64,000 nucleotides of DNA from Effusibacillus dendaii (lineage in GTDB: Bacteria > Bacillota > Bacilli > Tumebacillales > Effusibacillaceae), in contig NZ_AP023366.1 in assembly GCF_015097055.1 (NCBI RefSeq), positions 248,001-312,000 of the forward strand. The letters are read 5' to 3'. The notes below the pieces were generated by a model. The model had not been told where the DNA came from and ran no database searches. It saw only the letters and a program-made list of their open reading frames with translations. Of the stretch, positions 56,363 through 61,666 are shown piece after piece. The position numbers and the translations under genes were made by a program. Each line of letters opens with the position of its first letter. The first letter of the stretch is position 1.

Positions 56363-56409
56363 AAAAAACCTGTTTGCTTCCGAATCAGTCGGATGCAAAC
56401 AGGTTTTTT
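56363..56409. terminator. Bidirectional terminator
   Basis: A6-CCTGTTTGC pairs with GCAAACAGG-T6, and an inner stem TCCGA / TCGGA continues it with an ATCAG loop. Symmetry gives a T run on both strands. It serves the - strand gene (whose stop codon touches it) and + strand transcripts from the ftsK side. Confidence 0.92.
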
Positions 56410-56747
56410 CATTCGTGTGCGATGCCAATCACATAGGCGTGGGAGTAACCGATTTCCAATTGATGGGCAATCCGTAACAGTGCGTAAATCATTGGTTTGT
56501 AGCCGTTTTCGGTCAATGTCTCGGCAATGGAATAGACCGTATACGGCTCAGTCAAAATATCCTGACGGTTCGGATCATCCAACAACAGATCGATCCATTG
56601 GTCGTTGTAATATTTTCCAAGTCGTTTCTTATACGCCAAACGGTAGACGTCTTTGACGTTATATGGCAACTCTAAAGCTTCCAGGTAAGTATTTAATTGA
56701 AGTAATGCTTTCGCCACATTTTTTTCATTTTCGGAACCTGACATCAT
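56409..56747 (-). CDS. Orphan helical protein of unknown function
   Basis: 112 residues; the ATG whose first base is 56747 is preceded by GAGGTG, which overlaps a possible GTG at 56756. Probably all-helical: NVAKALLQLNTYLEALELPY, VYRLAYKKRLGKYYN, IAETLTENGYKPMIYALLRI. Cytosolic, acidic/neutral, no motif recognised. It is one of only two - strand genes, with its own promoter candidate and terminator, so it is an independent unit. Confidence 0.75.
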   Translation of the reverse strand: MMSGSENEKNVAKALLQLNTYLEALELPYNVKDVYRLAYKKRLGKYYNDQWIDLLLDDPNRQDILTEPYTVYSIAETLTENGYKPMIYALLRIAHQLEIGYSHAYVIGIAHE

Positions 56748-56765
56748 TTCAAACACCTCTTCTGT

Positions 56766-56917: not shown

Positions 56918-56946
56918 TTGTGTTATAATACGTTATGTTGTATAGT
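56918..56946 (+). promoter_or_regulatory. Promoter candidate for the riboswitch-gltB transcript
   Basis: TTGTGT (56918-56923) and TATAGT (56941-56946), 17-base spacer, so transcription would begin just before the aptamer. A TATAAT at 56924-56929 is an alternative -10 but lacks a good -35. Confidence 0.5.
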
Positions 56947-56954
56947 CTTACTTA

Positions 56955-57048
56955 AGTGGAAGTGCCCCTAGGGATCCGGCCTTATGGACAGGACCAAGCG
57001 GGGCAGGCCAATGGCTACACCGGAGGTTTAAAAGACCTGACGGACAGG
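56955..57048 (+). ncRNA. ykkC-family riboswitch, subtype 2 (probably ppGpp)
   Basis: The order of conserved blocks matches ykkC RNAs: CCTAGGGATCCGG, then GGACCAAG, then ACACCGGAGG with a TTTAAAAG loop and ACCT. P1 pairs TGCCCC (56963-56968) with GGGGCA (57000-57005). A GGCC/GGCT hairpin and a GGT/ACC P3 hairpin follow. CCAAG and ACACCGG are the forms seen in subtype 2 (ppGpp or PRPP), not the guanidine type (CCGAGAG, ACACGG). Glutamate synthase downstream favours ppGpp, as ppGpp-class RNAs are known to be linked to branched-chain amino acid and glutamate genes; PRPP types go with purine genes. Ligand remains inferred. Confidence 0.85.
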
Positions 57049-57050
57049 TT

Positions 57051-57078
57051 CCCTGCTCAATTGGCTGGGTTCTTTTTT
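57051..57078 (+). terminator. Riboswitch-controlled terminator before gltB
   Basis: CCCTGC...GCTGGG hairpin (one mismatch) followed by TTCTTTTTT. A competing hairpin ACCTG / CAGGT (57035-57049) lies just upstream and joins the aptamer 3' side, so ligand-dependent readthrough is plausible. Confidence 0.65.
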
Positions 57079-57103
57079 GTTTATTCAACTGGGGGTGCTG
57101 CAG

Positions 57104-60100
57104 ATGTGGAAGAATCGCAAAGTAAAAGAGGAACATGACGCATGTGGTATCGTCTCGGTGATTGAAAAGAACGGGACTCCGACTCATGACAACATACAAA
57201 AAACGTTTGATGCACTGATCAAAATGTCGCATCGGGCCGGTTTTGTTGACGGTGAAGGGGATGGATGCGGAATCCAGATCGACATTCCCCGTAAACTATG
57301 GGCCAAAAACCTGATGCGAAACAACCTGCCTGCTACGCTATCGGAGCAGCCAGGTTTTGCTGTCGGTCATTTTTTTCTATTGAAAGAAGAGAAAGCGCAA
57401 AAAGAAAACTGGTTGCCTAAATTGCGAGAATTTTTCCAACAGGCCGGTTTTTCGGTTTTGGTATCAACGGAGGCTAACGTAAACTCGGATGTGCTTGGAC
57501 CGCAAGGGCGGCATGATGAACCGCTGTTTGTGCAGCTCGCGCTCCATCATGACAAATTGCAGGGACAGGAATTGGAAAAACAACTGTTCCAGTTGCAATG
57601 TCAAATCGAAGCGGAGATGCCGTTCCACGTGGTGTCTTTAAGTTCGCACATTGCCATTTACAAAGTACGGGGTTCAGCCAATATTCTTCCCCTTTATTAT
57701 CCCGATCTGCAGAGTAAAGATTGCCGATCGGTGATTAGTCTGGGTCACAACCGTTATTCCACAAACACCACTACTGTTTTTGAACGGGTTCAACCGTTCT
57801 CGGTGCTTGGGCATAACGGGGAAATCAATACGATTCAGAAGCTGCGCGAAGAAGCGCAGATGCTTGGCATTCAATTGGTTCATGGCGGCAGTGACTCGCA
57901 GGACATGAACCGTACCATCGAGGGCATGATCCATCTCTATGGGATCAGCTTCTTTGAAGCGATGGAAATGATTTTCCCGCCTATTATTAATGAAATCAAA
58001 CAATTCTCAAATGAATTGCAGGATATGTATATGTTCTTCCGCTCCGGTTGGGGACCGTTCGCACAAGGACCGGCTGGGATTGTTTCCCGTTACGGGGACC
58101 AGTGCCTCTATTCGGTTGATGCGCTGGGGCTGCGTCCAGTGTGGTTGGTTGAGACGGACACATCCTATTATTTCTCGTCCGAACAGGGTGTCGTACCTGT
58201 AACGGAAATGGTAAACGACCCGAAAGCAATCGCACCCGGTGAGAAAGTGGCGGTACAGATTGACCGCAACGCCCATTCCGCAACGATTGTTCCGTATAGC
58301 GAAATGCAACAACAGGTGTTACATTCTGCAAAACAACGCTATCGGTTTAAGGGTTTTCGGAAGACGATCGGGTTTGGAACCCCATCGCTGGAAGGTGAAT
58401 TCTTCCTGCCAACAGCAGACCCTGCATCGGATGCTGAAACGAGAGACCGTCTGCTTGCTGCTTTTGGTTGGGATACGGCTGATTTGGATTTGGTTGAACA
58501 GCAAGCGAATACGGGACTGGAACCGGTTCGTTCGCTCGGGTTTGACGGGCCGCTGGCTGCGTTGTCGAGAGAACGGCAAAATATTGCCGACTTTTTTAAG
58601 GAAACGGTTGCGGTGGTTACCAATCCGGCAATTGACCGTGAACGGGAAATCGAGCATTTCTCCACACGTGTGGTGTTGGGGCCGCGTCCTTCTCTGCAAG
58701 GTCACCATCAACACGTTTTGCGTCGATTGGAAATTCATACACCGCTGCTGGTTGGCGGACATCGAAATGGTTCACCGCTTTCGATCGATGAGTACCGTCC
58801 TATGGCGCATGAATTAGGTACTTATCTGTTTGAAGATCTGATCCGTGAATTTAATGCGGGCCCGCATTCGATTATCGCAATTGATGCGGTTCGGAAAGCG
58901 GAAGAAACGGTAAAGGATGCCGTTCACAGAATTGAAAGGAATGCAGTCGAGGCGGTTGTGGCCGGAGCTCATCTTTTAGTGATCGATGATCGGCATGTAT
59001 TCCGTTACGATAACGGATATGTCGATCCGATGCTGGTTGTTTCTGCAGTGCATCACGCGCTGAAGGAATATCCGACAGCGTCCGGTGCTGAAAACTTACG
59101 TCGTCGCACATCGATTGTCTTGCGTTCCGGAGCGCTACGCAATTTGCATGACATCTCCGTGGCGATCGGTCTTGGCGCTGATGCGGTCAATCCGTATATG
59201 ATGTGGGAAACGGCAGGACTGGTGGAACCGCAGGAAAGCATTAAAAAACTGTATCAGGCATTGCACAAAGGTTTAGAAAAAGTGATTTCTACCTTGGGTA
59301 TCCATGAGTTGCGCGGTTACGATCGTCTGTTTTCGTCGATCGGTTTGAAACCGGAAGTTCAAAAGGTTCTCCAAACTGTTAACTTTTACGGCTCAGAGCA
59401 AGCGGGATTCGGCTGGGATCAATTGCAGTCTGATTCGGAAGAACGGTCCAGAATCGCTTCCGGAGAAGAAACGAAAAAGATGGCGAAAACGTTCCATTAT
59501 TTCCCGCGTATCTGGAAGTTGGCCGGTGATGTGGCTGCAGGCAACAAGCCTTTCTCCGATTTGGCTGACAAAATGGTTGAGATGGAAACGAACAATCCAA
59601 TTTCGCTCCGCCATGTGTTGGATCTAAAAAACGATCCCACTTCCAAAGTGGAGCCGAAAGATACGGATATCTCAATCGGTGAGCACAGCTTACCATTCTT
59701 GATCTCGTCCATGTCATTTGGTTCGCAGAACGAAACCGCATATCGTGCTTATGCGGAAGCGGCTTATCGGTTGAACATGATTTCGCTGAATGGAGAAGGC
59801 GGCGAAATTAAAGATTTGATCGGAAAATATCCGAATCACAGAGGTATGCAGATTGCATCCGGACGATTTGGCGTCAATATTGAATTGACCAATTCGTCGA
59901 ACCTGTTGGAAATTAAAATTGGACAGGGAGCAAAACCAGGCGAAGGCGGCCATCTTCCAAGTTCGAAAGTGACTGCGAAAATCGCTGCCGCCCGGAACGC
60001 ACAGCCGGGAACCGATTTGATTTCTCCTTCCAACAATCATGATATCTACTCGATTGAAGATTTGGCGCAGATGATTGACGAGTTGAAAACAGCCAATCCG

Positions 60101-61666
60101 AAAGCTCGTGTGTCTGTGAAAGTGCCGGTTGTGCCAAATATCGGCACCATTGCAGTCGGGATTGCCAAAGCGGGAGCGGATATCATTACATTGAGCGGTT
60201 ATGATGGAGGAACCGGTGCTGCCCGTGCTCATGCTCTTAAATACGTGGGTCTTCCGGTCGAAATCGGTGTGAAACTCGCTCATCGTGAACTGGTTGAGTC
60301 CGGCTTGCGCAACAAAGTTGAAATTTGGGCAGACGGTGGCGTGAAAACAGGCTTTGACGTAATGAAACTGATACTACTGGGTGCAAACCGCGTTGGTTTT
60401 GGAACCATGGCGATGGTTGCTATCGGCTGTATCAGCTGTCGAGCTTGTCATAAGGACACCTGTCCGGTAGGAATCGCAACCCAGATGGAATCGATCGAAG
60501 AAGCAAAAGAAAAAGGATTAAAGATGTTCAAGCCGCGTGAATTCGATCTGGCGGTTGAACACCTGATGGGATATTTTAAGGGAGTAGGCGAACATGTACG
60601 TCAACTTACTGCAAAATTGGGAGTTGCCCGTTTGCAGGATCTGGTAGGACAGTCCGATTTGTTGGAGCAAACACGTGAGCTGGATCGGTTGGATCTGTCT
60701 GACTTATTGGCGCCGGTGCAGTCGCAGGCACCAATTCGCGGCGCCGTTCCAGAATTGCGCGTATCGTCAGTTGGCGTGAATTCCTTGACTGAACGGCTTG
60801 CCATGGAAACGGTGATGGAAGTAGCCGCCGGGTCTGATACGGTAACTCGTCAAGCAGGGACTACATTGGCGAGTGATCGGGTAATCGGCAGCTACTTGTC
60901 CGGTTCTGTGACACGCGGCAAGAAGCAGGGTGAAATCAGTTCTTTCAACAAAGCGAAAGTGAATTTTGACAATGGTTCGGTTGGCGGAAACGGTTTTGCT
61001 GCCTATAACACAACCGGGGTTCATATCCGTATCCAGGGCGGTGCTCAGGATGGTGTCGGCAAAACATCGCTTGGCGGTAAAGTGATTGTTCTGAAAGGGA
61101 AAAACAAATATGGTAAATTTGTAGACGGCTCGGTCGGAAAAGGTCTGGCTTACGGTGCGCAAAGAGGTTTGTTCATCGTCCAGGGCAATGCCGATTCACG
61201 CGCTGGAATCCGGCTGTCTGGAGCAGATATTGTGATTGGCGGTCAGCTGCAAGCACCGGTGGAAGATTCCCGCGGTATGATTGGGTCTCGGGCAAATATT
61301 AAAGGATTTGCTTTTGAATATATGACAAACGGTCGGGCAGTTGTATTGGGAGACCCCGGTCCCTGGATCTGTTCCGGTATGACGGGCGGTGTTATTTACC
61401 TGCGGGTACAACCGGAAATGGGGTTGGACGAAAATGCGCTGCGCAGACGGATTGCGAAAGGCGCGAAAGTGGCGCTGTCGAAATTGGACCCGCAAGGCAA
61501 ACGTGATCTGGAAGAACTGATCGGCAATTATGTCAAAGAGTTGCGACGGAGCGGCCAAGAAGAAGAAGCAAACCAAGTGGAAGCGCTGCTGGCTCATCCG
61601 GAACAACATTTCATGATGGTTAAACCGGCTTCTGCACAAACCGATCAGGATATTGCAACTGAATAA
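57104..61666 (+). CDS. gltB: Glutamate synthase large subunit (GltB-type)
   Basis: 1520 residues from the ATG at 57104 (GGGGGTG upstream). Residues 1-13 form a propeptide; Cys14 (HDACGIVS) becomes the N-terminal nucleophile of the class II amidotransferase domain (to about 430). Central domain, then the FMN/2-oxoglutarate synthase domain (GGEGGEIKDLIG, HLPSSKVTAKIAAARN by parts) with the 3Fe-4S Cys triad C1109, C1115, C1120 (CISCRACHKDTC), then the GXGXG beta-helix domain. It makes two glutamates from glutamine and 2-oxoglutarate. No gltD lies next to it, so the electron donor (ferredoxin or a distant GltD) is unknown. Confidence 0.95.
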   Translation: MWKNRKVKEEHDACGIVSVIEKNGTPTHDNIQKTFDALIKMSHRAGFVDGEGDGCGIQIDIPRKLWAKNLMRNNLPATLSEQPGFAVGHFFLLKEEKAQKENWLPKLREFFQQAGFSVLVSTEANVNSDVLGPQGRHDEPLFVQLALHHDKLQGQELEKQLFQLQCQIEAEMPFHVVSLSSHIAIYKVRGSANILPLYYPDLQSKDCRSVISLGHNRYSTNTTTVFERVQPFSVLGHNGEINTIQKLREEAQMLGIQLVHGGSDSQDMNRTIEGMIHLYGISFFEAMEMIFPPIINEIKQFSNELQDMYMFFRSGWGPFAQGPAGIVSRYGDQCLYSVDALGLRPVWLVETDTSYYFSSEQGVVPVTEMVNDPKAIAPGEKVAVQIDRNAHSATIVPYSEMQQQVLHSAKQRYRFKGFRKTIGFGTPSLEGEFFLPTADPASDAETRDRLLAAFGWDTADLDLVEQQANTGLEPVRSLGFDGPLAALSRERQNIADFFKETVAVVTNPAIDREREIEHFSTRVVLGPRPSLQGHHQHVLRRLEIHTPLLVGGHRNGSPLSIDEYRPMAHELGTYLFEDLIREFNAGPHSIIAIDAVRKAEETVKDAVHRIERNAVEAVVAGAHLLVIDDRHVFRYDNGYVDPMLVVSAVHHALKEYPTASGAENLRRRTSIVLRSGALRNLHDISVAIGLGADAVNPYMMWETAGLVEPQESIKKLYQALHKGLEKVISTLGIHELRGYDRLFSSIGLKPEVQKVLQTVNFYGSEQAGFGWDQLQSDSEERSRIASGEETKKMAKTFHYFPRIWKLAGDVAAGNKPFSDLADKMVEMETNNPISLRHVLDLKNDPTSKVEPKDTDISIGEHSLPFLISSMSFGSQNETAYRAYAEAAYRLNMISLNGEGGEIKDLIGKYPNHRGMQIASGRFGVNIELTNSSNLLEIKIGQGAKPGEGGHLPSSKVTAKIAAARNAQPGTDLISPSNNHDIYSIEDLAQMIDELKTANPKARVSVKVPVVPNIGTIAVGIAKAGADIITLSGYDGGTGAARAHALKYVGLPVEIGVKLAHRELVESGLRNKVEIWADGGVKTGFDVMKLILLGANRVGFGTMAMVAIGCISCRACHKDTCPVGIATQMESIEEAKEKGLKMFKPREFDLAVEHLMGYFKGVGEHVRQLTAKLGVARLQDLVGQSDLLEQTRELDRLDLSDLLAPVQSQAPIRGAVPELRVSSVGVNSLTERLAMETVMEVAAGSDTVTRQAGTTLASDRVIGSYLSGSVTRGKKQGEISSFNKAKVNFDNGSVGGNGFAAYNTTGVHIRIQGGAQDGVGKTSLGGKVIVLKGKNKYGKFVDGSVGKGLAYGAQRGLFIVQGNADSRAGIRLSGADIVIGGQLQAPVEDSRGMIGSRANIKGFAFEYMTNGRAVVLGDPGPWICSGMTGGVIYLRVQPEMGLDENALRRRIAKGAKVALSKLDPQGKRDLEELIGNYVKELRRSGQEEEANQVEALLAHPEQHFMMVKPASAQTDQDIATE

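Follow-up and report, generated by a model that had tools for sequence, protein, structure and literature searches.

RNAs of the ykkC family that precede branched-chain genes, glutamate synthases and natA were grouped together as subtype 2a, for which a response to ppGpp has been demonstrated (Sherlock et al., PMC5912903). A later review counts glutamate among the ppGpp targets as well (PMC7266159). As a grouping, the association of ykkC RNA with glutamate synthase and ppGpp is therefore in print already and is not new. Subtype 2 is separated from guanidine-I at position 49, which is a pyrimidine in the former and A in the latter, and the PRPP and ppGpp aptamers carry an add-on helix, P0 (PMC6031431). 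At position 96, G is found in over 97% of PRPP aptamers, whereas ppGpp aptamers have A, C, U or nothing, and a G96A change shifted the preference of a PRPP aptamer about 40,000-fold, making it a ppGpp aptamer (PMC6031431). The partner of C75 is the guanine of the ligand (ppGpp) or G96 (PRPP), and G104 and G105 touch the ligand phosphates (PMC6031431). Competition between a terminator and P0 or the ligand site has been described for both PRPP and ppGpp switches (PMC6031431, PMC10687018). A literature search that did not cover the primary ppGpp paper found no discussion of G96 in the RNAs that precede gltB and no binding measurements on any of these RNAs.

The locus considered here lies in a 64 kb stretch of DNA (the window), for which a preliminary description had proposed a ykkC riboswitch in front of gltB. 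The conserved blocks it quoted, CCTAGGGATCC, GGACCAAG and ACACCGGAGG, were all found on the + strand by sequence inspection, together with the P1 blocks TGCCCC (56963-56968) and GGGGCA (57000-57005). A default Rfam scan of the whole window at gathering score was empty. With thresholds open, the sole relevant Rfam match was to RF00442 (Guanidine-I) at 56957-57044, with 39.2 bits and an E value of 1e-5 in a 401-base search; the default scan was silent because this falls below the 63-bit gathering score. Two covariance models that contain no gltB sequence were then compared with the window. Model R2, derived from ppGpp-gene RNAs (those upstream of ilv, liv, natA and GNAT genes), matched the gltB leader at 67.2 bits (E 1.4e-17), with the next match at 12.1 bits, and model R3, derived from purine-gene (PRPP) RNAs, matched it at 83.1 bits (E 3.8e-23) as its sole match. 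The anticipated covariance-model support is thus strong from R2 and R3, but does not extend to the Rfam family at its own threshold.

The RNA shows the general ykkC features, namely the P1-P2-P3 fold and the CUAGGG, CC(A/G)AG, ACAC and UAAAAG blocks. Eight gltB-type RNAs could be aligned unambiguously, and in this alignment the P0-P1-P2-P3 structure leaves 95.8% of cells paired; P1 and two positions of P3 show compensatory changes. The segment 56956-57052 (+) is therefore a ykkC-family riboswitch aptamer, as the preliminary description held. That the resemblance arose by chance, or that the element is a decayed, non-functional relic, would fit the missed Rfam gathering score and the free-energy z-score of the leader (-0.07, uninformative as a test), but E values of 1e-17 to 1e-23 from independent models, the compensatory changes, a conserved promoter and terminator, and the presence of gltB downstream of all 18 parsed RNAs make it extremely improbable. 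For the ykkC RNA as such, chance is excluded.

All aptamer elements lie on the + strand. The P0 5′ strand GGA (56958-56960) pairs with UCC at 57050-57052 and is invariant in the eight gltB RNAs, and A5 and G6 (56961 and 56962) come just after it in the sequence. P1 and its inner helices occupy 56963-57005, with 56963-56968 paired to 57000-57005, all cells paired and one compensatory A-U to C-G change. C49 is at 56999. The structural alignment of the eight RNAs places the P2 hairpin GGCC-AAU-GGCU at 57006-57016, and alignment to the T. mathranii numbering (PMC6031431) puts C75 at 57018. P3 (57020-57043) pairs 57020-57022 with 57041-57043 and 57024-57027 with 57035-57038 around the loop UUAAAAG, and shows A-U/G-C swaps at alignment columns 90-104 and 91-103. 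Position 96, a G of the PRPP type, is at 57039, and A103-G104-G105 (57046-57048; PMC6031431 and local fold) also form the foot of the terminator stem. The counterparts of the ligand-contact residues mapped from PMC6031431 (A5, G6, G48, C49, C75, A76, C77, G104 and G105) are all kept. A hand alignment that left the window RNA without a position 96 was rejected, as the covariation in P3 fixes the register with G96.

Assignment to subtype 2, with guanidine excluded, stands on C49, the GGA/UCC P0 helix, the ACACCG block and the model scores. Guanidine-I RNAs (RF00442) resemble the gltB RNA in their overall P1-P2-P3 fold and their loop AUAAAAG; unlike them, the gltB RNA has C rather than A at position 49, possesses P0 and reaches only 39 of the required 63 bits. 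The CCAAG block had also been taken as a subtype marker, and this we do not retain: CCAAG and CCGAG each occur in both PRPP and ppGpp RNAs. Residues 49 and 96 are the informative ones.

The conserved gltB promoter has a -35 element TTGTGT at 56918-56923 (+), aligned with TTGCAT or TTGTGT in relatives, and, after a 17-nt spacer, a -10 element TATAGT at 56941-56946 (+), which reads TATAGT, TATACT or TATATT across the 18 gltB leaders whose upstream sequence could be read. Transcription is predicted to start at about 56953, a few bases 5′ of P0. In some relatives (L136, at about 1460-1480, and also L169, L137 and L141) an inverted repeat TTGCAT-N4-ATGCAA lies over the -35 element, where it may be a protein operator besides the riboswitch.

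At the other end of the leader, an imperfect hairpin followed by a U tract (57073-57078) forms an intrinsic terminator at 57046-57078 (+; local hairpin -9.3 kcal/mol by RNAfold). A strict terminator-pattern scan of the + strand gave none, missing this element because its stem is imperfect. The hairpin begins at A103 (57046), overlaps the 3′ strand of P0 and ends 5′ of the ribosome-binding site GGGGG (57091-57095, +), itself 8 nt 5′ of the ATG at 57104. The extent first given for the riboswitch, 56955-57078, does contain the aptamer, but its end takes in the terminator. The 5′ arm of the terminator overlaps the 3′ end of the aptamer in the window RNA and in its sister L133, as it does in most of the other gltB relatives. 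The terminator core starts from A103/G104 in the window RNA and L133, and most relatives have a stronger terminator from position 96, inside the aptamer (the scan was without result for three Kyrpidia-type leaders and L171). As the terminator shares a P0 strand and ligand-contact bases, it competes with both. At full length, the fold of minimum energy (-42.9 kcal/mol) does not preserve the aptamer; enforcing the aptamer pairs gives -34.8 kcal/mol, and these calculated energies fit a ligand-stabilised alternative structure.

From this competition between terminator and fold, and by analogy with the riboswitch class, we infer that ligand binding leads to read-through. Transcription would begin at about 56953 and the nascent RNA would fold P1, P2 and P3, after which a ribose ligand rich in phosphate would occupy the P0/P3 pocket and lock P0 (56958-56960 with 57050-57052). 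Without ligand, 57046-57053 would instead pair downstream, and the terminator and its U tract (57046-57078) would stop the RNA before gltB. The bound state would thus be ON, with gltB controlled by transcription attenuation, and if the ligand is ppGpp then amino-acid starvation would give more glutamate synthase. The analysis demonstrates the fold, the promoter, the terminator-P0 overlap and the recurrence of the RNA before gltB. We are highly confident of the anatomy alone; the joint reading of this anatomy with ppGpp as ligand has about an even chance of being correct. That gltB is the controlled gene, as proposed at the outset, is upheld by position, promoter, terminator and the 18/18 parsed RNAs that precede it.

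The gltB gene (57104-61666, +) encodes a glutamate synthase large subunit with no adjacent gltD. It is a full large subunit by Pfam (Glu_synthase, Glu_syn_central, GATase_2 and GXGXG), but scores 743 bits against NCBIfam PRK11750, below the 1047 cut-off. A second gltB in the genome scores 1792 bits and is followed by gltD (C1:2437989; L173 745-6850, +), and no ykkC RNA was found near this pair. The switch therefore controls the divergent, stand-alone gltB and not the canonical gltB-gltD. On the other side of the leader, a 115-aa ORF at 56409-56756 (-) runs divergently and has no Pfam or NCBIfam match.

Similar leaders were sought with model R1, built from eight of the high-scoring gltB RNAs, which match it by construction. 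Across about 800 genomes, complete gltB leaders score 90-119 bits and everything else 81.5 bits or less. The high-scoring leaders belong to three Bacilli families (that of the window, that of Kyrpidia and the one holding Ferroacidibacillus), and gltB lies downstream of all 18 parsed RNAs in this group. Of 13 GltB-bearing genomes examined beyond this Bacilli group, none had a ykkC RNA near gltB, and no Clostridia gltB RNA was found. The window's genome has three ykkC matches in all: the gltB RNA, a guanidine-I RNA at C1:181599 (79.9 bits) and a 50.6-bit RNA before purK at C1:2053901. The last of these (L033 2490-2650, -; G000:C1:2053889-2054049) is of PRPP type and lies directly 3′ of the guanine-aptamer end GGACTACGAG, in the known guanine-PRPP tandem arrangement. 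One cell thus holds three RNAs on the same scaffold; the two others fit their own subtypes cleanly, whereas the gltB RNA does not.

To place the gltB RNAs between the two ligand classes, P3 was parsed in 109 rows and three gene groups were compared: purine (n=52), BCAA-type (n=20) and gltB (n=18). Position 96 is G in 52/52 purine RNAs and in 17/18 gltB RNAs, the window RNA included, but in only 2/20 of the BCAA-type, both of which have a 2-nt bulge in the P3 parse; the remaining BCAA-type RNAs carry U, C or A, or lack the base. Among gltB RNAs G96 is spread over three families, with a single exception (L142, A96), and L140, outside the script parse, has G96 by eye. The segment 96-102 is likewise PRPP-like, being 7 nt long in all 18 gltB RNAs and in 50/52 purine RNAs. 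Other positions point the opposite way. A Watson-Crick 81-95 pair is present in 1/52 purine, 19/20 BCAA-type and 16/18 gltB RNAs, A92 in 0/52, 10/20 and 18/18, respectively, and U80 and the short P0 of the gltB RNAs are mostly ppGpp-like.

The window RNA itself has an A81-U95 pair, A92 and UUC (not UUUC) in P0. It shares with 2a ppGpp riboswitches (ilvE, ilvB, ilvC, liv, natA and glutamate synthase) C49, P0, Watson-Crick 81-95, the A92 found in half of 2a, 2a-like P0 and P3 residues, terminator control and an amino-acid gene target, gltB being on the 2a list (PMC5912903); it departs from the published 2a definition, which is without G96, in having G at 57039 within a 7-nt segment. With 2b PRPP riboswitches (pur genes, often in tandem with a guanine aptamer) it shares C49, P0, G96, the 7-nt segment and A101, and its covariance score is higher with the PRPP model. 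It differs from them in its A92 rather than C, its shorter P0, the lack of a guanine aptamer, its gltB target, with no purine gene near the RNA, and its Watson-Crick 81-95 in place of A.A or A.G, 81-95 being non-Watson-Crick beside G96 in 51/52 purine RNAs. In short, the gltB group mixes 2a and 2b diagnostics. With the diagnostic base of one class on the scaffold of the other, it offers a natural test of one-nucleotide ligand choice. Retention of G96 may owe something to its place at the start of the terminator stem in most relatives, although in the window RNA and L133, where the core starts at A103/G104, it is not readily explained by terminator pairing.

Scoring with models gave divided results. 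A naive-Bayes score that omits position 96, with 0/72 leave-one-out errors, places 18/18 gltB RNAs on the ppGpp side, from +5.7 (that of Kyrpidia, the weakest) to +32, with the window RNA at +13.4. The difference R2 minus R3, by contrast, puts the window RNA on the PRPP side at -15.9 bits (67.2 vs 83.1), within the range of held-out purine controls (n=15, -13 to -46) and beyond that of held-out BCAA-type controls (n=10, +12 to +43); R3 contains P2 pairs that R2 lacks, so a bias of a few bits towards R3 is likely. The gltB group as a whole straddles zero, from the window RNA to L142 at +21.1.

The proposal of ppGpp as ligand is therefore supported only in part and is not established. It agrees with the listing of glutamate synthases under 2a (PMC5912903, PMC7266159), but G96 (PMC6031431) and the higher score with R3 oppose it, and we state it more weakly than the preliminary description did because the deciding base belongs to the other class. 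We slightly favour ppGpp over PRPP, at roughly even confidence. The same switch could instead sense PRPP, with G96 pairing to C75 and the pocket taking PRPP; since PRPP would accumulate at glutamine shortage, as PurF stalls, it would act as a nitrogen-shortage signal for glutamate synthase. G96 across three families, the 7-nt segment and the R3 score argue for this, as does the coexistence of Watson-Crick 81-95 with G96 in two purE-purB RNAs (see below). The ppGpp-like residues at 81-95, A92, U80 and P0 in most gltB RNAs, the A96 of L142, the absence of a nearby purine gene and the P2 advantage of R3 argue against it, and we regard it as a tenable but lesser possibility.

A third ligand on this scaffold (a pyrophosphorylated nucleotide, e.g. 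pGpp, or an NDP) would explain the mixed 2a/2b marks, the intermediate position of the group in the R2-R3 comparison (-16 to +21 bits) is compatible with it, and the ykkC scaffold has changed ligand several times (PMC7266159). We consider it unlikely, as the contact residues common to PRPP and ppGpp aptamers are all kept, C75 predicts pairing with guanine or G96, and there is no positive evidence for any other ligand. That the Bacilli gltB RNAs, filed as ppGpp sensors, instead combine a ppGpp-type scaffold with PRPP sensing or with a third specificity has a probability somewhat short of even. In that case nature would offer a counterpart to the laboratory G96A switch, and glutamate synthase would be linked to PRPP. 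L141 or L143 (G96) and L142 (A96) form a nearly matched ortholog pair for ligand comparison.

Several further ykkC RNAs vary at the same positions. L162 and L165, before purE-purB, combine a Watson-Crick U81-A95 pair with G96, which sets them apart from almost every other PRPP-type RNA in this comparison; that pair therefore does not exclude the purine type. L175, L176, L177 and L178 are ykkC RNAs on a ppGpp scaffold with G before G97, at the 96 position; none of their readable downstream genes is branched-chain, and by eye those of L176 and L177 look like psuG and trmK. In the ilvC-associated L187, L192, L193, L196, L197, L199, L200 and L201 the 96-102 segment lacks position 96, being only 5 nt long (GUGGC or GCGGC). 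Finally, L091, L095, L096 and L098 are acidimicrobial (Ilumatobacter-type) ykkC-like RNAs with GCAUC replacing ACACC and a long P0 (CCGAUC/GAUCGG), located before an EamA-like transporter; they perhaps represent the orphan subtype 2d.
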